Part shown: piece after piece, positions 1 to 11,459 of the stretch
Layout: each line of letters opens with the position of its first letter
How positions within the stretch are numbered: the first letter of the stretch is position 1
Origin: Desulfobacteraceae bacterium
GTDB taxonomy: Bacteria; Desulfobacterota; Desulfobacteria; Desulfobacterales; UBA11574
Direction of reading: 5' to 3'
NCBI GenBank assembly: GCA_030671225.1
Contig: DAOVAE010000013.1
Coordinates: forward strand, 1 to 11,459
Length of the DNA stretch: 11,459 nucleotides
The notes under the pieces: generated by a model
Databases searched by the model: none
Seen by the model: only the letters and a program-made list of their open reading frames with translations
What the model was told of the DNA's origin: nothing
Position numbers and translations under genes: made by a program

Positions 1-380
1 AAACGAATGGGTGTCGTCAAATTGTGAAAGAAATTTTTGACACCGATTCGAACCGGCTCAGGTGCCACCACCTTGTACCCTTGGGCTACCGGTTTCAAGA
101 CCCAAAAGTACATTTTGTCGTTAAAATGAAACCAAATCTTATTCCAATGATAAAGCGGATCCGCCACTTCGACCACCTCAAATTCATCGTCTTCCAGATA
201 ATCCTCATCCTCGTCTTTCGCTTGATCGGAAGCCGTGTCGGATTGATAGAGAGCGGGGCTCTTTTGGGCATAGGTTGGCTCAAGATCAGCCGCCGGTGCA
301 TCAGAAGACAATGACGGGTTGTGCGCACATCCAACCATAAACAGTGTAGCCATCCCAAAAATGAGCAATGCGTTTCTCAT
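1..380 (-). CDS. mlaA: MlaA (VacJ) family outer-membrane lipoprotein, C-terminus cut off by window edge
   Basis: The ATG is at 380-378, preceded on the minus strand by AAGGA with suitable spacing; 126 codons are visible before the gene leaves the window. Residues 1-18 are a lipoprotein signal ending in a lipobox-like M-V-G-C (Cys18), followed by Ala, which fits outer-membrane sorting. Residues 20-72 are a low-complexity acidic linker (runs of D and E). From residue 74 the family core begins: DPLYHWN, FNDKMY, VLKPVAQGY and PEPVRIGVKNFF, all typical MlaA signatures. In the known Mla system MlaA sits in the inner leaflet of the outer membrane and passes misplaced phospholipids to periplasmic MlaC for return to the inner membrane. 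The acidic linker before the core is longer than in E. coli MlaA. Family members are usually about 220-280 aa, so roughly half is missing here. Which mla genes follow cannot be seen. Confidence 0.88.
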   Translation of the reverse strand, partial: MRNALLIFGMATLFMVGCAHNPSLSSDAPAADLEPTYAQKSPALYQSDTASDQAKDEDEDYLEDDEFEVVEVADPLYHWNKIWFHFNDKMYFWVLKPVAQGYKVVAPEPVRIGVKNFFHNLTTPIR

Positions 381-481
381 GGGAAGTATCCTTTCTTGGT
401 TTGGTTCCATTTTTAACTTCATTCAGTATAGAAAACTTGGCGCTCCAGACCAGATCAGAACTCTCCGGCGAAAGAGTTTGA

Positions 482-590
482 AGTGAACTAAAGTTTAAAG
501 TGAGCTAAAGTTAAGGAATTCTGTCAATTATATAAAATCAGCGGAGCGAAGCGACACCATAACTTTAGGCACTTTAGATCACTTTAGACA
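482..590. repeat. Palindromic intergenic element with CTAAAG/CTTTAG repeats
   Basis: The left arm carries CTAAAG at 488-493, TTTAAAG at 494-500 and CTAAAGTTAAGG at 505-516. The right arm carries the complement three times: CCATAACTTTAG at 557-568, CACTTTAG at 570-577 and CACTTTAG at 580-587. The inner 12-mers match 11 of 12 when one is reverse-complemented. The roughly 40-base centre (517-556) is AT-rich and then contains GCGGAGCGAAGCGAC. There is no ORF inside. This looks like a non-autonomous dispersed palindromic repeat (REP/MITE-like) rather than a promoter. Copy number elsewhere in the genome cannot be seen. Confidence 0.5.
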
Positions 591-644
591 TTTTTAACTT
601 GTACGGCTTTAAGTAAAACAGCCTATTTAAGGGGCAAACCAAAG

Positions 645-663
645 CCTGACCCTTTGGGCCAGG
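645..663 (-). terminator. Hairpin terminator candidate for djlA
   Basis: On the minus strand the sequence reads CCTGGCCC-AAA-GGGTCAGG: an 8-bp stem with one G-U pair and a 3-nt loop, 26 bases past the djlA stop. The following tract (CTTTGGTTTG) is only moderately T-rich, so termination strength is uncertain. Confidence 0.45.
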
Positions 664-689
664 ATTCTGTACTTGTATATGTATGCAAA

Positions 690-1445
690 CTACCTGATGC
701 TCCTTTCTCTTTTTACCACTTCATAGGCTTCCCGGATTTCCCTGAATTTGTTATTGGCAAATTTTGTGAACTCCTCGGGCAACCCCTTTGATGCGATCTT
801 ATCGGGGTGATAATCCGATACGAGCTTTCTGTATTGTTTCTTTATATGCTCATTTGAATCGTTACTGTTACATCCAAGGATAGAATAATATTTCTCAAAA
901 TCTTGAATATATTTCGACTTTAGTTTCATGTATTTTTCATCATTGAAGTTGAATATCCTTACAGCGGAAAGTATAAGCTTCTCTTCGCTTGGGCTTAGCT
1001 TGCCGTCAGCCACTGATACTCTGAGCAATATATCTATCATAAGGTCAAGCATCTGGTACTGGGATCGAAACTGGCTGTAAAACTGGACAGCAAAATCATT
1101 AAAATGTTCCTGAGATTCAATGGCGGCATGAAAGATGTTTGTGGCAAGTCTTTTGCTTTCAGGGTTAAGGTTCAAGTCGTATAGCATAAAATTTTCCACG
1201 GCATCCATTTCTTCCTTTGATACTCGGCCGTCTGTCTTGGCGAGCTTTGCAAGCATGGAAAATGCTGCAACGAAAAAGGTGAACTGGGCCTCTTCACCAT
1301 GTGAAAGACGGGCCCGTTCAGCAGTGTAGTAGGTTTGATTGCCTGTATCAAATGCGTGACCGAGCGCTGCACCAGCAATTGCGCCTAAGGGACCGGCCAT
1401 TGCAAATCCTATTGTTCCTCCGATTATTTTTCCAAGCAAACTCAT
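690..1445 (-). CDS. djlA: DjlA-type co-chaperone (Gly-rich N-terminus, TerB-like domain, J domain)
   Basis: This 251-aa protein matches DjlA in layout and length (E. coli DjlA is about 270 aa). Residues 1-33 are a Gly/Ala-rich hydrophobic segment ending in GHAFD, the membrane-anchor and glycine-zipper part of DjlA. Residues about 55-175 look like a TerB-like helical domain with paired acidic turns (T-D-G at 71-73, A-D-G at 146-148). Residues about 186-247 are the J domain, with the essential HPD at 213-215 inside YHPDK. J domains stimulate the ATPase of DnaK (Hsp70), and DjlA does this at the cytoplasmic membrane. The start is supported by AAGGAG 7 nt upstream of the ATG on the minus strand. 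It appears monocistronic: 221 bp separate it from the upstream WbqC-like gene and a hairpin follows its stop. The fold and HPD are secure; the exact DjlA orthology is inferred from domain order. Confidence 0.85.
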   Translation of the reverse strand: MSLLGKIIGGTIGFAMAGPLGAIAGAALGHAFDTGNQTYYTAERARLSHGEEAQFTFFVAAFSMLAKLAKTDGRVSKEEMDAVENFMLYDLNLNPESKRLATNIFHAAIESQEHFNDFAVQFYSQFRSQYQMLDLMIDILLRVSVADGKLSPSEEKLILSAVRIFNFNDEKYMKLKSKYIQDFEKYYSILGCNSNDSNEHIKKQYRKLVSDYHPDKIASKGLPEEFTKFANNKFREIREAYEVVKRERSIR

Positions 1446-1666
1446 AAACTTCTCCTTTACTTGCTTTTGTTTTAAATTCCTTTAGGCAGTGAAATACCAT
1501 ATTTTGATGCCGTTTCCAAACCAGAAATTTATAAATTTTTAGTAAATGTTAATGGGGTGTATAGAGCCGGCAATGCAGTTGCAGGCAATATGTCCATCAA
1601 ATCTTATTTTGTGTAATCCTCTGAATAAATACAATTTTTCATGGTACTGTTCACGAAAAAGACGAG

Positions 1667-2353
1667 TTATCCGGCGATAAAGATATCGTGTGCTTTTGGC
1701 CCGCAATTGAAAACAAGGTCAAGTGCGGATAGGTTAGGGATGAAACTCGCCCAGAGTTGAGGATATACCGGTGATGGTGGTTTAAAGTCCATCAGACGGA
1801 TCCCTGACGCACCGAGTCGATCCTCATCAAGATATTTTCTGGCAGCGCTCTGTGCCAAAAACCGCGATGCTCCCATCTTCTTGCAGATCTCTATGAGGAG
1901 TTTGTCTCCTTTTGTCTTAATTCCCAGATCGGACAATAACGTGACCTTTGTGTTGACACGAAGATGTCTCATCAAATATTGAATAATCTCCAGGTTCAAA
2001 TCGATGAGTTTTTCAAATCTTGCTGAAAACAGCTTTACTACAAAGTTCATATGATCCTTAAAGTATGGGGCTCTGGCATATGCGCTATTTAAGCTTTCCA
2101 AATGTTTTTTTGCCCAGCGGCCTTCATGGCATATCCTGACAGTGTTGATATTTTGCAGCCCCAAACCTTTCTTTTTTACCGGCACGGTCATCCACAGGCT
2201 CCCCTGATTGTTTTTAAATCTGTTTCTAGTTATCCAGGTGGTACCTCTGGGGAACTGAACGTTATCCAAAATTACAAAAATATCTGAAAGATATGCCTTA
2301 TAGAAAAAACCAGGGAAGGGGAAAAAATATGGCTGATTGGCGGATATTATCAT
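1667..2353 (-). CDS. WbqC-like family protein
   Basis: This 228-aa protein starts I-I-S-A-N-Q-P-Y-F-F-P and continues with F-Y-K-A-Y-L-S-D-I-F-V and L-D-N-V-Q-F-P-R-G, the N-terminal hallmark of the WbqC-like family. Length is as usual for the family (about 220-240 aa). Family members often sit in O-antigen or other polysaccharide gene clusters, but their reaction is not firmly established, and there are no other glycan genes around it here. The ATG at 2353 places the conserved ANQP motif at residues 5-8, so the start is credible although the upstream Shine-Dalgarno is weak (GGGAAAAG about 10 nt away). The gene is divergent from the YkgJ-like gene and the two 5' ends crowd each other. No terminator is evident after its stop. 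Confidence 0.8.
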   Translation of the reverse strand: MIISANQPYFFPFPGFFYKAYLSDIFVILDNVQFPRGTTWITRNRFKNNQGSLWMTVPVKKKGLGLQNINTVRICHEGRWAKKHLESLNSAYARAPYFKDHMNFVVKLFSARFEKLIDLNLEIIQYLMRHLRVNTKVTLLSDLGIKTKGDKLLIEICKKMGASRFLAQSAARKYLDEDRLGASGIRLMDFKPPSPVYPQLWASFIPNLSALDLVFNCGPKAHDIFIAG

Positions 2354-2429
2354 TTTTTCAATTGACTTTTCCCAATATTCGGCTTCATATAATCAACAAA
2401 TTACACATCTTTCAAGTACGAGGCCACAT

Positions 2430-2777
2430 GTGATTGACATTGAGGATATTCACAAGCTGATTCAGGAATTCCTCTGTACTCCGGGATGCCATGAGTGCTG
2501 CCAAAACTTTGGAGTGCCTTCAAGAACCCGGGTGGAGGATGAACGTATCAAAACGTTTCTCCGGAGCAACTCTATGCAGCCCGGTGTGGCTCAAGGTAAC
2601 AGCTGCCCATATTTAAATGAAACGGGTTGTTCCATCTATCCGGTCAGACCGTTGATCTGTCGTCCGTACGGCACATCTCCCAACTACCTCTGTAAAATGG
2701 GTGTTATGCCATTGAGGCTTTTGCATGAAGATGAAGAATCGGAAATTTTCCAATTATATCAGACACATTTTTTCTAA
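2430..2777 (+). CDS. YkgJ-type Cys-cluster protein (putative zinc/iron-chelating)
   Basis: The protein carries the YkgJ-family signature: a cluster C-x3-C-x2-C-C in L-C-T-P-G-C-H-E-C-C, then C-P-Y-L-N-E-T-G-C-S-I-Y-P-V-R-P-L-I-C-R-P-Y-G, typical of the putative metal-chelating CxxCxxCC family. The conserved cysteines suggest a bound metal (zinc or an iron-sulfur centre), but no reaction is established. I chose the GTG at 2430 (115 aa) because GAGG lies 6 nt upstream and it leaves a 76-bp gap to the divergent WbqC-like start. The open frame extends further, to a TTG at 2337 (146 aa), which would overlap the 5' end of the opposite gene and has no well-placed Shine-Dalgarno. The stop lies 15 bp from the convergent two-CxxC gene. 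Confidence 0.75.
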   Translation: MIDIEDIHKLIQEFLCTPGCHECCQNFGVPSRTRVEDERIKTFLRSNSMQPGVAQGNSCPYLNETGCSIYPVRPLICRPYGTSPNYLCKMGVMPLRLLHEDEESEIFQLYQTHFF

Positions 2778-2792
2778 CCAGGATCATCTCTA

Positions 2793-2987
2793 TTATTTTA
2801 GCCTGTAGCGGGGTTCGTCTCCGGCCTTACCAACTAGGCTTAGGTGGCCGCCACAAATTTGACAGACCAGAAGGCTGTCCAACAGCTTCGATTCGTTGTT
2901 GGCAGGATCATCCATAGAAATATCATTTTTAGGCAGATAACCGGATGCGCCGCATTCTAGGCACATGCATTCCATTTCTTCGCTCAT
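2793..2987 (-). CDS. Small two-CxxC zinc-ribbon-like protein
   Basis: A 64-aa protein with CLEC at residues 9-12 and CQIC at 42-45, the four-cysteine arrangement of a small zinc ribbon. The 29-residue spacer between the knuckles is acidic and polar. The ATG at 2987 has AAGGTG 5 nt upstream on the minus strand. I do not recognise a named family. It could be a stand-alone metal-binding or regulatory protein. It is convergent with the YkgJ-like gene and divergent from the 104-aa gene, so it is probably transcribed alone from the 2988-3099 spacer. Confidence 0.65.
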   Translation of the reverse strand: MSEEMECMCLECGASGYLPKNDISMDDPANNESKLLDSLLVCQICGGHLSLVGKAGDEPRYRLK

Positions 2988-3099
2988 GTAACACCTTTTT
3001 TCTAAAAAGTTAAAAACTTTATAGACGTTATGCGTTTTAAAGTGTAGAAAACTATATATAACAGATTTGTCCGATTAATTCTACTGAAAGGAGTTTGTC

Positions 3100-3414
3100 A
3101 TGTTCGAAATAATTGCAAATCCTGATGATTACAAAATTGGGGCTTTAAGAGAAGGGCTTGGATACAGGCAGATTGCCTTCCCCGATGATGAACGCAAAAA
3201 ATGGGGGAAAGAAATCGGAACCTTTGCTGTAAAGTTAGACGGGTTGTCTGAAAAAGCCAAACATCTTCAGAATCTTTTCAATAGTGAAGAAGCTATAATG
3301 GCAACACCTGCTTCTCTCAAGACATTCAAAGTGCAATTATTTAAAATAAACCATGCTCTAAATACGGCGCTTGATATTGCTAAAAAACTTGAAGCCGATA
3401 TTGTAAAGAAATAA
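3100..3414 (+). CDS. Hypothetical 104-aa protein, predicted helical
   Basis: Function not recognised. The start is well supported by AAGGAG 7 nt before the ATG. The protein is soluble-looking, charged, without Cys, signal peptide or membrane segment. Residues about 45-104 have a heptad-like spacing of Leu/Ile/Ala with Lys/Glu and end in K-K-L-E-A-D-I-V-K-K, which suggests a helical hairpin or coiled coil. The N-terminal part (residues 1-30) contains G-L-G-Y-R-Q-I-A-F-P. It is transcribed away from the two-CxxC gene and stands alone: 214 bp including a palindromic element separate it from gltX. Confidence 0.6.
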   Translation: MFEIIANPDDYKIGALREGLGYRQIAFPDDERKKWGKEIGTFAVKLDGLSEKAKHLQNLFNSEEAIMATPASLKTFKVQLFKINHALNTALDIAKKLEADIVKK

Positions 3415-3443
3415 TATTATAGAGTGACATGTGTAGCAAACTA

Positions 3444-3584
3444 GTGCCTGAACGAAAACTGTCTTTTTTGCCAATATCGGCGTCAGACTCAAATTTTAAT
3501 CCTCGAAATACTGCCAGTATTACTGTGGTTAAAATTTTCGTCTTTCTTGATCTTAACAAAAAATCCTAGTTTTCGTTCGGGCAC
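3444..3584. repeat. 141-bp symmetric palindromic (MITE-like) element upstream of gltX
   Basis: The termini are 17-bp inverted repeats: GTGCCTGAACGAAAACT at 3444-3460 and its complement at 3568-3584, 16 of 17 matching. Inside, AAATTTTAA at 3491-3499 pairs perfectly with TTAAAATTT at 3529-3537. The centre is AATACTG-C-CAGTATT at 3507-3521. All three arm pairs share the same symmetry axis at base 3514, so the whole element can fold into one long interrupted hairpin or cruciform. A T6 run (3464-3469) and an A6 run (3558-3563) face each other with a one-base offset. No ORF is contained. The likely interpretation is a non-autonomous mobile or REP-like repeat; it may also end transcription from the 104-aa gene. 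Confidence 0.75.
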
Positions 3585-3628
3585 AAGCTACATGGTATTC
3601 TGGCGAAGGCGAATAAAGGTAGGTCTAT

Positions 3629-5116
3629 ATGCAACGGGAAGTAATCGTACGCTTTGCCCCGAGTCCGACCGGATATCTTCATATTGGTGGTGCCAGAACT
3701 GCCATTTTTAACTGGCTTTTTGCTCAAAAGACCTGCGGGAAAATGATCCTTAGAATCGAGGATACGGATGCGGAAAGGTCTACCCAAGAATCTATACAAG
3801 GGATTATTGACAGTTTGAAATGGCTGGGGATAACCTGGGATGAGGACCCATATTTCCAGTCGCAGTTTATTAACGAACATCTGGCTGCGGCCCGTAAATT
3901 ACTGGAATCAGGGAATGCTTATAAGTGTTTTTGCACTAAAGATGAACTCGACCGTAAACGGCAGGCGGCATTGAAGCGGAAAAGTGATTTAAGGTATGAT
4001 GGCACTTGCCGCAATTTAACGTTAGAGGCGGTGGCCGAAAAAGAAGAGGCCGGGATTCCTTACACAATTCGGATGAAAGTGCCGCGTGGTGAGGGCTCTG
4101 TTCGTTTTGAAGATATCGTTTATAAAACGATTGAATATAAATACGAGGACATTGAGGATTTTGTGATTGTCCGTTCTAACGGCCAACCTCTGTATCTCCT
4201 TTCTAATGCGGTCGACGACATTCGTGACCGGATTACCCACGTTATTCGCGGACAGGATGGTTTGTCAAATGCACACAGGCAGATTTTAATATACCGGGCT
4301 CTGGGAGCGCCGGTACCACAATTCGCGCACATGTCTCTTACGCTTGATCCGCAAAAGGCAAAGATCTCAAAACGTAAGCACGGCGAACTGGTTGCGGTCC
4401 ACTTTTACAGGGAACATGGATTTTTACCGTGGGCATTTGTAAATTTTTTGGTCCTTCTGGGATGGGCAACGCCCGAATCGAGAGAAATCTTTTCAAGAGA
4501 AGAACTGATCGAAGCATTTTCTCTGCAGGGAATCAATCGCGCTAATTCCATCTTCGATGTAAGAAAGGATGATCCAAAATATTTTACCGATCCCAAGGCG
4601 ATAAGTATCAACGCCCATTACCTGAGGACTCTACCGATTGAAGAGATCGAGCCTTATGTTCGGGTTGAGATGGAAAAAGCGGGGATCTGGGATCCGGAGT
4701 ATGAAAACACAAAACACAGCTGGTTTCTGGATACAATTGAGCTTATTCGCGGCCGTTTTCATGTTACAACCGATTTTGGTTCCCGTGGTCGGGCCTACTT
4801 TTCGGATGATTTTCCCATCGAACCAAGGGCCTTGAAAAAGAATATCCTCAAGCATCCGGAACTCAAAAAATGGCTTCCCATGCTTGCGGATCGGCTGCAG
4901 GCTTTAGAATCCTTTTCGGTCACTGAGACCGAAAACGTGATTCGTGAAATGGCGGCAGAGTTCGGAGTCAAACCAGGAGTGTTGATCAACGGGATTCGAA
5001 CTCTGGTTACCGGTCAGCTGGCCGGACCAGGGATGTTTGACGTTTTGATTGCCATAGGACAGCATCGTGTGGTTAAACGCCTGCGCAGGGCTCCGGCACT
5101 TTTTGACAAACTATAA
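3629..5116 (+). CDS. gltX: Glutamate--tRNA ligase (GluRS)
   Basis: Class I synthetase that attaches glutamate to tRNA(Glu) in the cytoplasm. Length 495 aa is normal. The HIGH-type motif is P-S-P-T-G-Y-L-H-I-G-G at residues 11-21, and the KMSKS-type loop is K-I-S-K-R at 245-249; both bind ATP. Cys100, Cys102 and Cys127 occupy the positions of the zinc ligands of the E. coli-type enzyme, but the fourth position (His in E. coli) is Asn129, so the zinc site may be incomplete. The C-terminal half (from about 330) is the helical anticodon-binding part. The ATG at 3629 has AAAGGTAGG about 6 nt upstream. It opens a plus-strand operon with glnS 26 bp behind. With a separate GlnRS encoded next door it is expected to be a discriminating GluRS, which is inference. 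Confidence 0.97.
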   Translation: MQREVIVRFAPSPTGYLHIGGARTAIFNWLFAQKTCGKMILRIEDTDAERSTQESIQGIIDSLKWLGITWDEDPYFQSQFINEHLAAARKLLESGNAYKCFCTKDELDRKRQAALKRKSDLRYDGTCRNLTLEAVAEKEEAGIPYTIRMKVPRGEGSVRFEDIVYKTIEYKYEDIEDFVIVRSNGQPLYLLSNAVDDIRDRITHVIRGQDGLSNAHRQILIYRALGAPVPQFAHMSLTLDPQKAKISKRKHGELVAVHFYREHGFLPWAFVNFLVLLGWATPESREIFSREELIEAFSLQGINRANSIFDVRKDDPKYFTDPKAISINAHYLRTLPIEEIEPYVRVEMEKAGIWDPEYENTKHSWFLDTIELIRGRFHVTTDFGSRGRAYFSDDFPIEPRALKKNILKHPELKKWLPMLADRLQALESFSVTETENVIREMAAEFGVKPGVLINGIRTLVTGQLAGPGMFDVLIAIGQHRVVKRLRRAPALFDKL

Positions 5117-5142
5117 AAAAGCGAAAGAATTGAGCTTTAAAT

Positions 5143-6855
5143 ATGACAAAAACCGAATCCACTCCTGCTTTGAATTTTATTCGGAATATCGTTGCCCGGG
5201 ATGTAAAAGCCAACAAAAACAACGGTCTGGTGGCGACCCGCTTTCCGCCGGAGCCTAACGGCTACCTGCACATCGGACACGCCAAGTCCATCTGCCTTAA
5301 CTTTGGTATTGCCGCAGAAAATAAGGGCGGTAATTGCAATTTGCGATTCGATGATACCAACCCCAGTAAAGAGGATGTTGAATATGTAGAATCGATAAAA
5401 GAAGACGTCCGATGGCTTGGATTCGACTGGGATGATCGGCTCTTCTATGCATCTGACTACTTTGAACAACTGTATCAGTATGCCGTCCAGTTGATCAAAG
5501 CCGGTAAGGCTTATGTTTGCAGCTTGAGCGCTGATGAGATCAGAGAGAACCGCGGCACCCTGACAAAGCCGGGGAAGAACAGTCCCTATCGTACGCGATC
5601 AATAGAAGAAAATCTGGCTCTGTTAGAGCGCATGCGGGCAGGAGAATTCGAGGACGGTTCCCACGTACTTCGAGCAAAAATTGATATGGCATCACCAAAT
5701 GTGCTTATGCGTGATCCGACTCTTTATCGCATTCGGCGGGTTCCACATCACAGAACGGGCGACAAGTGGTGCATTTATCCGATGTATGACTTTGCCCACT
5801 GTCTTTCGGATTCCATCGAAGGGATTACCCATTCTCTTTGTACTTTAGAATTTGAAATTAATCGCCAATTGTACGACTGGATACTGTACGAATTGAGCGT
5901 CGATTGCCATCCCCAGCAGATCGAATTTGCGCGCCTTAATCTCAGTTATACAGTATTGAGCAAGCGTAAGCTTGTGGAACTGGTAGAAGGGGGGTATATC
6001 TCAGGATGGGACGATCCTCGAATGCCGACCATAAGCGGCCTGCGGAGACGCGGGTATACACCGGAATCGATCCGTAATTTTTGTGAACGTATCGGAGTGG
6101 CCAGACGAGACAGTATCGTTGATGTAGCACTACTAGAATATAGTATCAGGGAAGATTTGAATAAATGGGCGCCGCGTGTAATGGGAGTGTTACGTCCGTT
6201 GAGGGTAGTCATAGATAACTATCCTGAAGATAAGGTGGAAGAATTAGACGCCTTGAACAATCCAGAGGATCCGGCTATGGACACACGGAAGGTCCCTTTT
6301 TCACGTATAATTTACATTGAACAGGACGACTTTCAGGAGGACCCGCCGAAAAAGTTCTTCCGTTTGGCTCCCGGGCGAGAAGTAAGGTTGCGATATGCGT
6401 ATTTTATTAAATGTATGGAAGTCGTTAAGGATGAGAAGACCGACAAGGTGGTCGAACTGCACTGCACCTATGATCCGGATACACGCGGTGGATCATCCCC
6501 GGATGGACGTAAGGTCAAAGCTACTTTGCACTGGGTTTCGGAGGCCCATGCAATCAAAGCTGAAGCACGTCTGTATGATCATCTCTTTTTATTAGAAAAT
6601 CCGAGCGAAGAAAAGGATGTTGACTTCAAAAAATCTTTTAATCCTAATTCTTTGAAGGTCCTGTCTTTCCTTGTGGAACCGAGTCTGGAAGGTGCTGCAC
6701 CGGGTAACATATACCAGTTCGAGAGGCTCGGTTATTTCTGCGTCGATTCCGTAGATTCTACCGACAAATCCCTTGTGTTCAATCGAACGGTAACCTTGCG
6801 CGATACATGGGCCAGGTTACAGAAATCACGGAAAAATGAACAAAAGAAGAGGTAA
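5143..6855 (+). CDS. glnS: Glutamine--tRNA ligase (GlnRS)
   Basis: Class I synthetase that attaches glutamine to tRNA(Gln). At 570 aa it is close to E. coli GlnRS (about 555 aa). The ATP-binding HIGH motif lies in [13 protein letters not shown] at residues 35-47, and the KMSKS-type loop is V-L-S-K-R at 271-275. Residues 63-72 ([10 protein letters not shown]) and [13 protein letters not shown] at 207-219 are typical GlnRS blocks. The C-terminal beta-barrel anticodon-binding domains run from about 340 on. No extra C-terminal domain is seen beyond a short basic tail. It is cotranscribed with gltX (26-bp gap) and the FmdB-like gene (4-bp gap). Having GlnRS means direct charging of tRNA(Gln) is possible; whether the GatCAB amidotransferase route also exists is not visible here. 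Confidence 0.97.
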
Positions 6856-6859
6856 AGCC

Positions 6860-7354
6860 ATGCCGATATATGAATTTTATTGCAAAGAATGCAATACTAT
6901 TTTTAATTTTTTTTCCAAGATCGTTAACACCGCTAAAAAACCGATGTGCCCAAAATGTAAAACCAATAGACTAACAAAACAGATCTCTTTGTTCGCATTT
7001 ACAGGAAAAGCAAAGGAAGATGGTGATATCGATGATCTCCCATTTGATGAGAGTAAAATGGAACAGGCCATGCATATGCTGGCCAGTGAGGCTGATAAAA
7101 TGAATGAAGATGATCCGAAGCAGGCTGCCAATCTTATGCGCAAGCTTTCTGATATGACCGGCCTTGAACTGGGTGAAGGCATGGATGAGGCATTGAGACG
7201 GATGGAAAAAGGTGAGGATCCTGAACAGATAGAGGCTGAACTGGGCGATATTCTGGAAGAGGAAGACCCATTTTCTCTGTTGGCGAAAAAGGCAAAGAGC
7301 ATCAAAACAAAACACAAGGAGCCGCTAAGGGATGAAACACTTTACGACCTATGA
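6860..7354 (+). CDS. FmdB family zinc-ribbon protein with acidic helical C-terminus
   Basis: The 164-aa protein begins M-P-I-Y-E-F-Y-C-K-E-C, the standard opening of the FmdB zinc-ribbon family, with Cys8, Cys11, Cys30 and Cys33 forming two CxxC knuckles. Beyond residue 45 it has a long acidic, methionine-rich helical extension (E-Q-A-M-H-M, L-M-R-K-L-S-D-M and similar) that many FmdB proteins lack or have shorter. The family was named from a putative regulator beside formylmethanofuran/formamidase genes; the biochemical role is unclear. I chose the ATG at 6860 because it gives the conserved N-terminus and has AGAGG upstream. An in-frame ATG at 6836 would overlap the end of glnS and add eight non-conserved residues. 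It is the third gene of the gltX-glnS operon, suggesting co-expression with translation genes. Confidence 0.85.
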   Translation: MPIYEFYCKECNTIFNFFSKIVNTAKKPMCPKCKTNRLTKQISLFAFTGKAKEDGDIDDLPFDESKMEQAMHMLASEADKMNEDDPKQAANLMRKLSDMTGLELGEGMDEALRRMEKGEDPEQIEAELGDILEEEDPFSLLAKKAKSIKTKHKEPLRDETLYDL

Positions 7355-7372
7355 TTTTTTTAGCGTCCCACA

Positions 7373-7401
7373 TTGACAAATCCATATGCCGGGACTATGT
7401 T
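7373..7401 (+). promoter_or_regulatory. sigma70-type promoter of the HesB-like selenoprotein gene
   Basis: A consensus -35 box TTGACA (7373-7378), a 17-bp spacer and a -10 box TATGTT (7396-7401) are seen. Transcription would start near 7408, giving a leader of about 55 nt before the ATG at 7462. Confidence 0.65.
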
Positions 7402-7415
7402 ACTGTGAGTTTTAA

Positions 7416-7445
7416 GCCCATTTAATCAGGTGGGCATATTTTTTC
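7416..7445 (+). terminator. Intrinsic terminator-like hairpin in the leader of the HesB-like gene
   Basis: The stem GCCCATTT/AGGTGGGC (7416-7423 and 7428-7435, 8 bp with two G-U pairs) has a 4-nt loop and is followed by ATATTTTTTC. It is well placed to end the gltX-glnS-fmdB-like operon. It also lies downstream of the TTGACA/TATGTT promoter and only 16 nt before the next start codon, so it is part of that gene's leader as well. Confidence 0.65.
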
Positions 7446-7461
7446 AAAAAAGGAGAATATT

Positions 7462-7785
7462 ATGGTTGAAGTTACCAAATCAGCTACGGAACAGATTGCT
7501 GAGTATTTTAAAGACAAAGAGACCACACCGATACGGATCTTTTTAAACGCGGGAGGATGAGGCGGCCCATCACTCGGAATGGCTCTGGATGAGCCGAAAG
7601 ATACTGATCATGTTTTTGACATTGACGGTTTTAAATATATTGTTGATAAAGAGTTCATGGAAAAAATAAAACCGATTAAGATAGATTTTTCAGTAATGGG
7701 TTTTAAACTCGACAGCGGCATAGATTTCGGATCAGCCGGGTCAGAATGTTCAAGCTGTGGAACAAAAACAAGTTCCTGTTGTTAA
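7462..7785 (+). CDS. IscA/HesB-like selenoprotein (TGA at 7558-7560 read as selenocysteine)
   Basis: One continuous frame of 107 codons runs from ATG 7462 (AAAAGGAG about 8 nt upstream) to TAA 7785, interrupted only by TGA at codon 33. Around it the protein reads L-N-A-G-G-U-G-G-P-S-L-G-M-A-L-D-E-P, and IscA/HesB-family proteins of Desulfobacterota-type bacteria have Cys at this spot. A-type proteins such as IscA carry or deliver Fe-S clusters with three Cys ligands: one in this position and two near the C-terminus. Here the tail has C96-S-S-C99-G and ends C106-C107. HesB-like selenoproteins are an established bacterial selenoprotein group. Coding quality and family similarity continue on both sides of the TGA, which argues against a decayed gene. 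A SECIS-like hairpin follows at 7581-7595. Translation of the downstream part alone from ATG 7579 would lose the first cluster ligand. A role as an A-type carrier or redox protein is inference. Confidence 0.88.
7581..7595 (+). promoter_or_regulatory. Candidate bacterial SECIS hairpin within the HesB-like gene
   Basis: The stem GGCTC/GAGCC (7581-7585 and 7591-7595) is perfect and GC-rich, with a 5-nt loop TGGAT carrying a G at its second position. The stem base is 20 nt after the TGA. Known bacterial SECIS elements are short stem-loops just 3' of the UGA with a G early in the apical loop, recognised by SelB. A U-G pair (7580/7596) can add one more base pair. A competing pairing (TCGG 7574-7577 with CCGA 7594-7597) exists. 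Confidence 0.55.
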
Positions 7786-7808
7786 TTATACAGAGTCTGT
7801 TTTAAACT

Positions 7809-7841
7809 AAGGGTGACACATATGAGGTGTTGCCCTTTTTT
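7809..7841 (+). terminator. Strong intrinsic terminator after the HesB-like selenoprotein gene
   Basis: The stem AAGGGTGACAC (7809-7819) pairs along all 11 positions with GTGTTGCCCTT (7827-7837), two of them G-U, around a 7-nt loop, and runs into a T tract (7836-7841). It lies 24 bp past the stop codon at 7785. Confidence 0.85.
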
Positions 7842-8054
7842 CATGAGCATTTTCAGGCAAGGTGTCCGGAATGTAATGTTATGCCGGGTGGATTCCATCA
7901 TATAGGATGCGACCTGGAAATATGCCCCAAGTGCAGCAATAGGTGGATTTATTGCCGGTGTGCCGGTATAAAGACCAAAATCGATAAACATTCAAAGAGT
8001 GAGTGTAAAATAATTTCGTTTACCGGCACAAGAAAAAGCAAGTTAAAGAAATAG
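7827..8054 (+). CDS. Small zinc-ribbon protein (C-x2-C ... HH-x2-CD ... CPxC type), start uncertain
   Basis: The frame encodes a Cys/His-rich domain: C-P-E-C, then G-G-F-H-H-I-G-C-D-L-E-I-C-P-K-C and W-I-Y-C-R-C. This H-x2-G-C-D-x-E-x-C-P-x-C arrangement is shared by many small uncharacterised bacterial proteins with a zinc-binding look. The basic, Lys-rich tail (from about residue 48) is not recognised. The 5' end is problematic: the earliest usable start is GTG 7827 (75 aa), which lies in the 3' arm of the terminator of the previous gene and has no properly spaced Shine-Dalgarno. The next ATG (7881) would remove the first CxxC. It may therefore be expressed by read-through, be poorly expressed, or be the remnant of a longer gene. 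The domain itself is convincing. Confidence 0.55.
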   Translation: MLPFFHEHFQARCPECNVMPGGFHHIGCDLEICPKCSNRWIYCRCAGIKTKIDKHSKSECKIISFTGTRKSKLKK

Positions 8055-8117
8055 CACAGAATACGGCCCGTGAGAAATCAGGGTTAGAGCCAAAACATTC
8101 AATTGTTAATGCTGGTT

Positions 8118-8732
8118 TTAGGTTGAGCATGGAATACAGATGCGTTTGCCGTTTTCTGCGTAAGCCATCTTTGTTGACATGGTCATTTCACCGCATTTTG
8201 CGCATGCTTCTGAGCGTGCCAGGGGCGCATAAGGCGGCATAACAATATCTATTTCTTTTGTGGAGAAGATATCATTAAAAGGTCTTGAAAGAAGATCTTT
8301 TGCTTTGAGCAGCTTGTGTCGCCATTTCTCTTTTTCGCTTGCAGCACCTGAAGAAATGGCTGCATCTAGCCGATCGAACTCTTCTCTTGATTTACCGCTA
8401 TATCGATAATATCTATTGCGGGAAAACCGATAGGCCCTTTTGCTTGAGCGGTTAAGGATCGTATATGCATTTTTCCCGTAATCTTTTAAAATAAGGTTAC
8501 CTTTACCGATTGAGGTGCCCAGCAGTACTTGCAAGGCATCAACTGCACATGAATCGTTTTCACTAATGGCGACTACCTCTTCGTCCCTTGACCGCTTGAG
8601 TTCAAGAAGGTTTATAGCATTTTTTGCGACCAGGTAACCATAAACAAGGCCCGGGCAAAGATGACCATGAAATTCGATACATTGTTTAAGATCTTCCGTC
8701 AGATCGAATTTTGTACTTCCTGCATTTTTCAT
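8118..8732 (-). CDS. FmdE family protein with C-terminal zinc finger
   Basis: This 204-aa protein has the FmdE-family metal motif F-H-G-H-L-C-P-G at residues 21-28 (His22, His24, Cys26) and the second block S-E-N-D-S-C-A-V-D-A-L-Q with Cys62. The C-terminus carries a zinc-finger-like pair, C177-A-K-C180 and C199-I-P-C202. FmdE was first described with tungsten/molybdenum formylmethanofuran dehydrogenase, but many homologs, including this one, occur where no such enzyme is encoded nearby; their role is not settled. The ATG at 8732 is preceded by AAAGGAG on the minus strand. The protein is cytoplasmic, with no signal peptide. It is divergent from the LysE-type exporter across a 201-bp spacer, and no clear terminator is seen behind it. 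Confidence 0.85.
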   Translation of the reverse strand: MKNAGSTKFDLTEDLKQCIEFHGHLCPGLVYGYLVAKNAINLLELKRSRDEEVVAISENDSCAVDALQVLLGTSIGKGNLILKDYGKNAYTILNRSSKRAYRFSRNRYYRYSGKSREEFDRLDAAISSGAASEKEKWRHKLLKAKDLLSRPFNDIFSTKEIDIVMPPYAPLARSEACAKCGEMTMSTKMAYAENGKRICIPCST

Positions 8733-8816
8733 TGGTAAACTCCTTTAGGCACTTAGTTGTAAATTTTGTGCTTTTTATGGAAAAAATCTAAACAGCATAA
8801 TTTCTTTATCGCGAGT

Positions 8817-8840
8817 CATTGAATATTTTCAATGCTTTTT
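8817..8840. other. AT-rich hairpin followed by T tract in the fmdE/lysE spacer
   Basis: CATTGAA (8817-8823) pairs perfectly with TTCAATG (8828-8834) around TATT, and is followed by C and T5. It resembles a weak intrinsic terminator on the plus strand, but no plus-strand gene ends upstream of it. It may instead be part of the leader of the exporter gene or an operator. Confidence 0.3.
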
Positions 8841-8846
8841 GGTTCT

Positions 8847-8925
8847 CTCCGAGCCGTAGGCTTTACCCTCCGGTCTGTAAACCCTACGGGCTGGAAGCGG
8901 AGCAGGAGGCCGGTTTCTCCGGAGG
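8847..8925 (+). promoter_or_regulatory. GC-rich structured leader able to sequester the Shine-Dalgarno of the LysE-type gene
   Basis: A long hairpin is formed by CTCCG (8847-8851)/CGGAG (8898-8902), AGCC/GGCT (8852-8855/8889-8892), GTAGG/CCTAC (8856-8860/8883-8887) and TTTAC/GTAAA (8862-8866/8877-8881). Its loop contains CCTCCGG (8867-8873), the exact complement of CCGGAGG (8919-8925), which includes the ribosome binding site for the TTG start at 8934. A competing hairpin within 8904-8920 (GGAG/CTCC) also exists. The block is far more GC-rich than its surroundings. It could be a riboswitch-like translational switch or a dispersed repeat; I recognise no known riboswitch class. Confidence 0.45.
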
Positions 8926-8933
8926 TTTGACTG

Positions 8934-9647
8934 TTGAATGAATTAGTAAATTTTTTCTCTACGTTCTGGGTAATTTTTTCTTTTTCCTTTCTGGTGGCTC
9001 TGACCGGTGCCATGTCTCCCGGTCCTTTATTGACCTATACTATTATCAAATCCGTTCAAACAAGTAAACACGGCTATTTAATGGGTCTTTGGATTATAAT
9101 CGGTCATGCAATACTTGAATTAGGGATTATCATTCTGTTGCTTCTGGGTTTTTCTTTTATTCTGAAAAATATCATTGTTATTCGTATTATCGGGATTGTT
9201 GGGGGACTGATACTTGTTTTTTTCGGGCTATCCATTGTCCGTGACGTGTACTTTGGAAATATACCTGCCGACTTCTTGAATTCTCCTGACATGCAAAATC
9301 ATGAGGCTGCTTCATCGATTAGTAGAGGCCTGGAAAACCCGGTTATCGGAGGAATTATGGTTTCCATGTCCAATCCCTACTGGTGGGTCTGGTGGGCCAC
9401 AATAGGTCTTGCCTTTATGATCCAGTTTGACATATCTTTCATGCAATGGCCGAAGCTTGTAGCCTTTTATCTGGGGCATGAAGCCGGTGATCTGATCTGG
9501 TACTTGATTGTTTCAACCCTTTCATTTTTTGGCCTCAGGCATTTGAACAAAAAAGCTTATTATGGAATTCTTGTATTTTGCGCCATATTTATGATTATTT
9601 TTGGTATATACCTGGGCATTTCTCCATTTTTTCACGATGGCATGTAA
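8934..9647 (+). CDS. LysE/RhtB-family inner-membrane exporter
   Basis: The 237-aa protein is strongly hydrophobic, with about six predicted membrane segments. The first, residues about 11-32, ends in the family signature G-A-M-S-P-G-P (25-31). Others lie near 47-71, 82-102, 137-165, 174-199 and 208-230. The Trp-rich S-N-P-Y-W-W-V-W-W at 146-154 is typical of the N-P-x-x-x-x-W region of the LysE superfamily. Such proteins export amino acids or related metabolites; the substrate here cannot be told. Translation starts at TTG 8934: GGAGG (8921-8925) is 8 nt upstream, and the ATG four bases later is followed at once by TAG-TAA in its own frame. The start codon is thus weak, and the structured leader above may limit it further. 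The loop at 103-136 is longer than usual. It converges on the 99-aa gene 45 bp away. Confidence 0.85.
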   Translation: MNELVNFFSTFWVIFSFSFLVALTGAMSPGPLLTYTIIKSVQTSKHGYLMGLWIIIGHAILELGIIILLLLGFSFILKNIIVIRIIGIVGGLILVFFGLSIVRDVYFGNIPADFLNSPDMQNHEAASSISRGLENPVIGGIMVSMSNPYWWVWWATIGLAFMIQFDISFMQWPKLVAFYLGHEAGDLIWYLIVSTLSFFGLRHLNKKAYYGILVFCAIFMIIFGIYLGISPFFHDGM

Positions 9648-9692
9648 CTCATTTGTTTTTTTAATGTTTGTACATGGGATTGATCGATTGAG

Positions 9693-9992
9693 CTATTCAG
9701 TTAGTAACTCTAAGCTGTCACTTTCAAGAGAATCGGGTTCGGAGATATGAATCTCTTCCGCTTGATGTGCTGAGGAAGTCTGGGTTTCGGAGGTATCTTT
9801 AATGGCTTTTTCACGAAAATGCATTTTAGTGGTTTCAATATATTGTCGAGCAAATTTTTCACCCCCAAATTTTAGGAAAACCAAAATGTTTTTTTGTATG
9901 TGGCTATTATCTTGAAGTTTATCAGGAAGTAGATTCGTGCATCGCTGAAAAGCCATTCCCAGATCGTCCAGGGTATTCAATTTATTAGTCAT
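9693..9992 (-). CDS. Hypothetical 99-aa protein
   Basis: Function not recognised. The frame is open further upstream to 10160, but the ATG at 9992 has AGGAG 6 nt upstream on the minus strand, and the extra residues look non-coding. Residues 1-66 are mixed and probably helical (L-D-D-L-G-M-A-F-Q-R-C-T-N, then K-N-I-L-V-F-L-K-F-G-G-E-K-F-A-R-Q-Y-I-E). The last third (67-99) is a disordered acidic and Ser/Thr-rich tail containing the near-duplicated D-S-L-E-S-D-S-L-E-L. No signal peptide, membrane segment or cysteine pair is present. It is transcribed alone, probably from the promoter at 10063-10091, and converges on the exporter gene. It could be a lineage-specific protein. Confidence 0.55.
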   Translation of the reverse strand: MTNKLNTLDDLGMAFQRCTNLLPDKLQDNSHIQKNILVFLKFGGEKFARQYIETTKMHFREKAIKDTSETQTSSAHQAEEIHISEPDSLESDSLELLTE

Positions 9993-10307
9993 GATATCTC
10001 CTGAATTTGGTTTTATTTGTGATTCTTTTTGATAATAATTCATGACCGCAAAATGCAAAGTGTTTATACCCAGAATTTTTAAAAATTGCAAAATTGATAT
10101 AACGTTGATAGGATTAACTATGATCATACCTCCAAAGAGAGACCTTTGGAAAATGTTCATTTTTGTTCAAGTTCAAGGAAGGGGAAAATTTTAACCACAG
10201 GAATACATTTAGTATTTCGAGGATTAAAATTTGAGCCTGACGTAGAAATTGGGCAAAAAGGAGTGTTTTGCAAAGGTCTCAAAGATCACAGAAAAGGGAG
10301 GAACGTC
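9993..10307. other. 315-bp divergent spacer between the 99-aa gene and the methyltransferase
   Basis: The open frames that cross this region have no supporting start signal, so I treat it as non-coding. It contains a good minus-strand promoter (10063-10091), possible plus-strand promoter boxes sharing the same TTGCAA (TAGGAT at 10109-10114 after 17 bp, or TATGAT at 10119-10124), and a small hairpin CCAAAG/CTTTGG (10132-10137/10144-10149). The Shine-Dalgarno GGGAGG of the methyltransferase is at 10296-10301. The methyltransferase leader would be about 180 nt; apart from the small hairpin I see no clear structure in it. Confidence 0.5.
10063..10091 (-). promoter_or_regulatory. sigma70-like promoter for the 99-aa gene
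   Basis: On the minus strand: -35 box TTGCAA (10091-10086), a 17-bp spacer and -10 box TATAAA (10068-10063). The start of transcription would be near 10056, about 64 nt before the ATG. The TTGCAA box is its own complement, so it could also serve a plus-strand promoter. Confidence 0.5.
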
Positions 10308-11303
10308 ATGACCTCAGAAGAATTGAATCCGGGGGAAATACTCAAATTATCAGGAGGTTATTGGGAAACCTGCACTCTTCATGCCGGAGTTAAGCTCGAA
10401 ATTTTTACGATCATCGGTAACGACCATTTAAGGAGCAAAGAGGTTGCTGAAAAACTTAACGGCGATAAAAGGGGCGTTGAAATGCTTCTCAACGCCCTTT
10501 CCGCCATGGATTTTCTGAAAAAAAAAGATGATATCTATTCCAACACCCCGTTGAGTTCAGCTTTTCTTTCCAAGGACTCTTCCCGATATATCGGGCACAT
10601 AGTCATGCACCATCACAATCTGATAGATTCCTGGAGCCGGCTTGATGTGGCGGTTCAATCCGGCCGTTCGGTCAGACATAGTGCATCTCACTCGGATGGA
10701 GAACAACGCGAAAATTTTCTCATGGGCATGTTAAATCTGGCCATGAATTTAGCCCCGGTATTGGTGCCGAAAGTAGATCTTTCCGGTCGGCGGCATCTAT
10801 TAGATTTAGGTGGTGGCCCCGGAACCTATGCAATCCATTTTTGTATGCACAATCCCCGGCTAAAGGCGACTGTTTATGATCTGCCCACCACCCGACCCTT
10901 TGCTGAAAAGACCATTTCTAAATTTGATTTGCAAGACAGAGTCGATTTTAAGAATGTGAATTATCTCGAAGAAAAGATTGAAGGAATCTATGATGTGGCA
11001 TGGCTGTCCCATATTCTCCATGGTGAAGGGCCAGAGGACTGCCGTAAAATTATCGGCAAGGCTGTTTCTGCTATGGAGCCTGGAGGAATGATTTTGATTC
11101 ACGACTTTATTCTAAACAACAACATGGACGGACCTCTTTTCCCGGCCCTGTTTTCTCTGAACATGCTTTTGGGAACGCAGGTAGGACAATCCTATTCTGA
11201 AAAACAGATCAGGGGCATGCTCTCTGATGCCGGAGTCAGTGAAATCCGACGCATTTTTTTCGAGTCACCCAATGATTCAGGAATAATAACCGGTATTGTT
11301 TGA
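10308..11303 (+). CDS. SAM-dependent O-methyltransferase (family 2, COMT/hydroxyneurosporene type)
   Basis: The 331-aa protein has the two-part build of class 2 small-molecule O-methyltransferases. An N-terminal winged-helix dimerisation domain (residues about 18-80, with L-H-A-G-V-K-L-E-I-F and V-A-E-K-L) precedes a Rossmann methyltransferase domain. SAM motif I is L-D-L-G-G-G-P-G-T-Y-A at 165-175. V-Y-D-L-P at 189-193 matches motif II. S-H-I-L-H-G-E at 234-240 holds the His in the position of the catalytic base of this family (H-x2-H). E-P-G-G-M-I-L-I-H-D at 257-266 is the post-motif. The methyl acceptor is unknown; relatives act on phenols, hydroxy-carotenoids and other small molecules. 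I chose ATG 10308 because GGGAGG lies 6 nt upstream; the frame continues upstream to 10146 without a plausible ribosome site. The Tat-exported protein gene follows 41 bp behind and may be cotranscribed. Confidence 0.85.
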   Translation: MTSEELNPGEILKLSGGYWETCTLHAGVKLEIFTIIGNDHLRSKEVAEKLNGDKRGVEMLLNALSAMDFLKKKDDIYSNTPLSSAFLSKDSSRYIGHIVMHHHNLIDSWSRLDVAVQSGRSVRHSASHSDGEQRENFLMGMLNLAMNLAPVLVPKVDLSGRRHLLDLGGGPGTYAIHFCMHNPRLKATVYDLPTTRPFAEKTISKFDLQDRVDFKNVNYLEEKIEGIYDVAWLSHILHGEGPEDCRKIIGKAVSAMEPGGMILIHDFILNNNMDGPLFPALFSLNMLLGTQVGQSYSEKQIRGMLSDAGVSEIRRIFFESPNDSGIITGIV

Positions 11304-11344
11304 TAAGATGTTGTGTAACTTTTCAAAGGTCTCAGGAGTAGATT

Positions 11345-11459
11345 ATGAATTGTCATCCCATTACCCGCAGAGAATCGATAAAAAAGTTGCTTAAGATATC
11401 CGGGGGATTTGCGCTGACCGGAGTAATGACATGGCCCTTTCAAAAGCCGCTTTCAGCCC
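11345..11459 (+). CDS. N-terminus of a probable Tat-exported protein, cut by window edge
   Basis: Only 38 codons are visible. The ATG at 11345 has AGGAG 6 nt upstream. The protein begins M-N-C-H-P-I-T-R-R-E-S-I-K-K, a twin-arginine motif (Arg8-Arg9) in a basic n-region, followed by a moderately hydrophobic stretch (G-G-F-A-L-T-G-V-M) and a region resembling a signal-peptide end (P-L-S-A). Tat substrates are exported folded, often with a redox cofactor. What the mature protein is cannot be told. It lies 41 bp behind the methyltransferase on the same strand, so the two may share a transcript. Confidence 0.65.
   Translation, partial: MNCHPITRRESIKKLLKISGGFALTGVMTWPFQKPLSA

Follow-up and report, generated by a model that had tools for sequence, protein, structure and literature searches.

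The gene and its family

The stretch of DNA analysed here (the window) comprises 11,459 nucleotides of a Desulfobacteraceae bacterium (contig DAOVAE010000013.1, positions 1 to 11,459), and at 7462-7785 it carries a gene for an IscA/HesB-like protein, with an in-frame stop codon that very probably encodes selenocysteine (Sec). The gene comprises the following features:

7450-7455, forward strand: AAGGAG, the likely ribosome-binding site of the gene, as read from the sequence
7462-7785, forward strand: proposed HesB-like selenoprotein gene, 107 residues with TGA as Sec and TAA as stop, assigned by NF038090 and PF01521 matches
7558-7560, forward strand: in-frame TGA, proposed Sec codon 33 and first position of the motif U-G-G-P, assigned by the TGA/Cys column in relatives
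7581-7595, forward strand: hairpin like a selenocysteine insertion sequence (SECIS), stem GGCUC/GAGCC, loop UGGAU at 7586-7590, 25 bases from TGA to loop, assigned by synonymous conservation and pairing counts
7747-7758, forward strand: tail motif C-x-x-C with Cys96 and Cys99, suggested as partners for Sec33; neither varies across the 35 aligned proteins
7777-7782, forward strand: terminal Cys106-Cys107, absent from some relatives in the tail alignment

Bases 7462-7785 form a single frame of 107 codons and a TAA with TGA 7558-7560 as the sole interruption, and ATG 7462 lies six bases 3′ of the AAGGAG; upstream of ATG 7579, no AAGGAG-like site was seen when the sequence was read by eye. An ordinary open reading frame (ORF) list yields only the 68-residue piece 7579-7785, and the database proteins P0086 and P0091 are 68-residue pieces of the same kind. 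When the read-through protein was compared with family models, it scored 120.4 bits against NCBIfam NF038090 "IscA_HesB_Se" (cut-off 85), with residues 1-98 on model positions 1-101, and its residues 2-86 gave one Pfam PF01521 match (31.5 bits, cut-off 26.3), while the parts 5′ and 3′ of the TGA taken singly had no Pfam match at E ≤ 0.001. The continuous frame is thus more than chance, because one domain match spans residues 2-86 and neither part gives one. These results bear out an earlier note on this DNA, made from its letters, which had read the frame as continuous across the TGA, placed cysteines at 96, 99, 106 and 107, where the translation has them, and expected gene calling to return the 68-residue fragment alone.

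By NCBI's models the protein is filed under NF038090, whose curated cut-off it passes and with which it shares relatives carrying TGA or Cys, with no difference found. A sister subfamily is defined by TIGR01911 (HesB_rel_seleno), as the protein stays below that model's cut-off (36.5 versus 66.35 bits). It also stays below the cut-offs of the A-type carrier models IscA (35.9 versus 150.6 bits), SufA (35.8 versus 136.2 bits) and ErpA (27.1 versus 117 bits), and likewise below that of TIGR00049. With these carriers it shares a predicted IscA fold, but it differs in the missed cut-offs, in Sec for Cys and in its C-x-x-C tail.

HesB-like selenoproteins were already known as a group, as the earlier note had said: a 2006 table gives 11 of them, with members in Syntrophobacter, Desulfovibrio and Geobacter (PMC1794560), and a passage of a 2026 paper gives U-x-G-P as the family motif (PMC13188914), which is present here as U33-G-G-P inside the IscA/HesB domain (PF01521). 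As described in those parts of the literature, the likeness consists in the IscA/HesB domain, Sec at a conserved Cys and U-x-G-P; the difference is that the present protein does not reach the threshold of TIGR01911, which reviews cite as the model. The selenoprotein reading holds up, but such proteins have been known for some two decades, and the gene is one further copy.

Codon 33 and the downstream hairpin in relatives

In the taxonomic family of the source, the gene was found in 20 of 24 genomes, and of the 26 copies that pass the cut-off, 24 are interrupted by a single TGA and two by none. Across the order, 212 of 242 genomes gave a match at E ≤ 0.001 and 206 a match over the cut-off; one TGA was counted by eye in 136 of the best 150 matches, and none in 14. 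A scan of named genomes yielded 46 loci, in which the one named strain is Desulfospira joergensenii DSM 10085 and the other titles read Desulfobacterales, Desulfobacteraceae, Desulfobacula, Desulfosarcina, or only Deltaproteobacteria or Proteobacteria. At codon 33, the 74 matches from the family and the named loci (64 distinct proteins) have TGA in 71 and TGT in three, a count that holds the present gene twice (as L012 and as the window), draws on some genomes occurring in both sets and includes the truncated copy L037, which was excluded afterwards. All 16 full-length stop-free copies that were fetched have Cys at codon 33; four of them (L129, L148, L155, L156) were missed by the motif and were read separately, with Cys assigned by our own alignment. 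Alignment thus places TGA or Cys at codon 33, as expected by the earlier note, which had described relatives with Cys: this holds for every full-length stop-free copy fetched, but most close relatives also have TGA. In the relatives examined, judged by their codons, Sec is the common state and Cys the minority state. A tree of 101 rows, in which the Cys rows were hand-picked and many forks are weak, requires at least five changes between the TGA and Cys states.

Both kinds of copy can occur in one genome. Two genomes of the order have a Cys copy and a TGA copy as tandem neighbours, at L126 (G245:C403 1323-1616 and 1781-2071) and L147 (G182:C16 55359-55652 and 55873-56163); in others, e.g. G007 and G019, the two kinds lie apart. 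Four related copies (L078, L086, L087 and L115) end in C-C-S followed by a TGA with a second stop directly after it; this terminal TGA is probably part of a tandem stop and less probably a second Sec.

The candidate SECIS lies 21-35 bases 3′ of the TGA and has a five-pair stem. Limits given for bacterial SECIS elements in the part of the 2026 paper that treats them are a loop of 3-9 bases with G first or second, a stem of 4-16 pairs and a distance of 16-37 bases from the UGA (PMC13188914), and the hairpin lies within them with its loop UGGAU, five pairs and 25 bases. Among 61 distinct TGA copies, its codons are nearly frozen synonymously (Ala GCT in 59 of 60, Leu CTG and Glu GAG each in 61 of 61), compared with a mean normalised synonymous entropy of 0.77 for 45 other codons, and the Asp codon, whose third base falls in the loop, varies. 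Across 59 distinct rows, every one of the stem pairs can be made in 58 or 59. A second sample drawn from the order has the complete five-pair stem in 24 of 28 TGA copies versus none of 12 Cys copies, a count that leaves out L129, L148, L155 and L156; L148, inspected by eye, keeps four of the five. In our judgement, the synonymous freeze and its loss in Cys copies speak strongly for an RNA signal that goes with the TGA.

Decoding of the TGA

Taken together, the best explanation, held with high confidence, is that the gene product is a HesB-like selenoprotein belonging to NF038090, with Sec at UGA 33, guided by the hairpin, and an IscA-type fold. UGA 33 would be decoded by SelB and Sec-tRNA, with the hairpin directly downstream as the guide, as its conservation suggests. 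Family models, the TGA/Cys column, the hairpin and the predicted fold support what the earlier note had proposed, an IscA/HesB-type selenoprotein with Sec for a conserved Cys.

Several observations weigh against this explanation. Changes in the hairpin pairs were no higher than in shuffles (140 of 500 as high), so that the SECIS assignment rests on synonymous conservation and on the loss in Cys copies; a few codons elsewhere likewise vary little (Lys +13, 0.23; Glu +34, 0.27). The 60 bases of the window at the TGA are not unusually stable on folding (z 0.24), with the hairpin present in the centroid and a best structure that differs from it, and an Rfam scan of 7400-7900 at E ≤ 5 gave no match to a SECIS family. 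IscA carries a C-x-C tail, versus C-x-x-C in the present protein. Searches of the genome bin of the window (1,060,151 bases in 153 contigs, 68.7% complete) found no selA, selD or tRNA-Sec and no selB reaching the cut-off, and those for FlpD and HdrA gave no second convincing selenoprotein: FlpD was not found, and the HdrA copies have no internal stop, apart from a fragment of 67 residues that matched at 30 bits and contains a TGA.

The weaker matches in the bin were assigned to other genes. One SelB match below the cut-off was read and is the start of EF-Tu at a contig end; the others, unread, were taken for IF2- and EF-G-like proteins from the length of their frames. The SelD match, judged by eye, is ThiL-like and adjoins ThiE, the matches to tRNA-Sec are two tRNA-Ser, a tRNA-Leu and a tRNA-Met, and the SelA search gave no match. 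Much of this genome is probably missing, since the other 23 genomes of the family span 1.9 to 5.3 Mb. Of the 20 gene-bearing genomes of the family, 13 contain a selB that passes the cut-off and 11 a tRNA-Sec (about 75 bits, also called tRNA-SeC by ARAGORN); 16 have either and four, including the own bin, neither. The earlier note had named the absence of selB and selC from the genome as a point against its reading, and so the bin stands on that side and the family on the other; because the bin is incomplete and 16 of the 20 genomes have selB or tRNA-Sec, we read the missing sel genes as a probable gap.

Other decodings of the TGA were weighed against Sec. Ordinary gene callers stop at the TGA, as they would at the real stop of a pseudogene or at a misread TGC or TGT, but the same TGA recurs in 24 of the 26 family copies and in 136 of the best 150 copies of the order, and dN, the nonsynonymous divergence, is well below dS, the synonymous one, on both sides of it (versus L025, the most similar tree row, dS 0.42 and dN 0.056 on the 5′ side and dS 0.62 and dN 0.067 on the 3′ side; values were obtained for two loci, L025 and L077, of seven named, the others being duplicates or unmatched by name). 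We give a pseudogene or sequencing error almost no credence. Reading of the TGA as Trp is suggested by databases, where 70 of the 120 proteins listed show Trp at codon 33, with one more, P0046, seen by eye (the motif used to read codon 33 covered all but six of 121 proteins, our own included; the six, P0086 among them, were inspected directly). Two of these 70, however, have a 50-residue core identical to that of a fetched locus with TGA at codon 33, from which Trp is taken as a gene-calling artefact, by extension for the remaining Trp proteins as well; codon 33 was never TGG in the DNA that was read (TGA 71 times and TGT three times, with Cys codons in the other stop-free copies), and two genes neighbouring the present one end in TGA (7354 and 11303). 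Database Trp at the Sec position is thus probably, as far as these comparisons go, a TGA misread by gene callers, and a source organism in which TGA means Trp is exceedingly improbable. Among the same database proteins, P0002 has Leu at the Sec position, and identity of P0003 to a TGA locus was ruled out (78 of 80 residues).

UGA 33 might also be translated as Cys, through a tRNA-Cys of selC* type that has a UCA anticodon and its own SelB; such a tRNA, with A1:U72, a second SelB and a cysteinyl-tRNA synthetase (CysRS), is described for Desulfobacterales in a passage of PMC7609411. A second kind of UCA tRNA resembling it does occur in three family genomes (L050 1501-1591 in G018, L061 81-171 in G013 and L062 1439-1525 in G011), and in those of G013 and G018 we read A1 opposite U72. 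These are, however, three of 24 family genomes, against 20 of 24 with the TGA gene, and G018 is without the gene; no second SelB match over the cut-off was found in G011 or G013, inspection by eye of the short listed stretches around the three tRNAs showed no SelB- or CysRS-like ORF, and no UCA tRNA of the tRNA-Cys type was found in the 68.7%-complete bin of the window. Decoding as Cys by this route is therefore judged very unlikely. The L062 tRNA stands, by eye, near a SirA/TusA-like ORF.

Fold, cysteine tail and possible function

The predicted fold is that of IscA, and in the predicted structure Sec33 lies in the loop that holds the first cluster cysteine in IscA. All 35 aligned proteins have Cys96-x-x-Cys99, whereas Cys106 and Cys107 are not kept in every one; several locus proteins in this alignment end at matched coordinates and lack their last residues, so that full tails were read separately. 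The tail is predicted to be flexible, with a predicted local distance difference test score (pLDDT) below 50, and Cys96 and Cys99 could reach Sec33. The earlier suggestion that the four tail cysteines may serve as Se-S partners is thereby kept for Cys96 and Cys99 and weakened for Cys106 and Cys107.

The product would have the fold of an IscA-type iron-sulfur carrier, and the most likely function, to which we give about an even chance, is IscA-like binding of iron or an Fe-S cluster by Sec33 together with Cys96 and Cys99, as the modelled fold suggests. The principal functional alternative, less probable but substantial, is a redox protein in place of a metal carrier, in which Sec33 would act as the attacking selenolate and form an Se-S bond with a tail cysteine. 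The invariance of Cys96-x-x-Cys99 and the predicted flexibility of the tail favour it, as does the view, expressed in a passage of PMC13188914, that most uncharacterised selenoproteins are likely redox proteins; the modelled fold and the position of Sec33 at that of a cluster cysteine point instead to metal or cluster binding. Cys is retained at codon 33 where Sec was lost, which is compatible with both roles alike. If metal binding is the function and Sec33 is a true ligand, these proteins would be iron or Fe-S carriers with the cargo on the selenolate completed by the C-x-x-C tail, and tandem Sec and Cys copies would be partners or selenium-dependent substitutes, an extension we consider rather doubtful.

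The literature bears on this function through a Methanococcus maripaludis protein, likened here by description and not by sequence, which is likewise a HesB-like selenoprotein but an archaeal one, with archaeal Sec decoding. It is reported to have been identified by mutagenesis and 75Se labelling, its function was called unclear in a 2024 passage, and its disruption mutant still fixes nitrogen according to an unpublished observation given there (PMC11097638). Another paper names no known function and puts a question mark behind iron-sulfur cluster assembly (PMC2933860).

The nearest named loci keep the gene order around the window, by which the source is probably a member of the Desulfobacterales. 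A relative of the zinc-ribbon gene just upstream stands near the gene in 17 of the 46 named loci and FmdE in eight, with other neighbours in seven or fewer. Two features follow the gene:

7827-8054: small Cys-rich ORF of 75 residues with a GTG start, just downstream
8118-8732, reverse strand: FmdE-family protein with a zinc-ribbon-like C-terminal end, assigned by PF02663

For the ORF 7827-8054, neither Pfam (at E ≤ 0.001) nor NCBIfam (at the model cut-offs) gave a match, and a relative was found in one of the 46 named loci (L088, 57%).

The finding corrects a gene that ordinary gene calling shortens to 68 residues, and it indicates that databases misread such genes, the Trp seen at the Sec position in 70 of the 120 relatives listed being the case in point. 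It also shows strong selection to maintain both the Sec position and the associated RNA signal throughout an order where the family is present in 206 of the 242 genomes searched.
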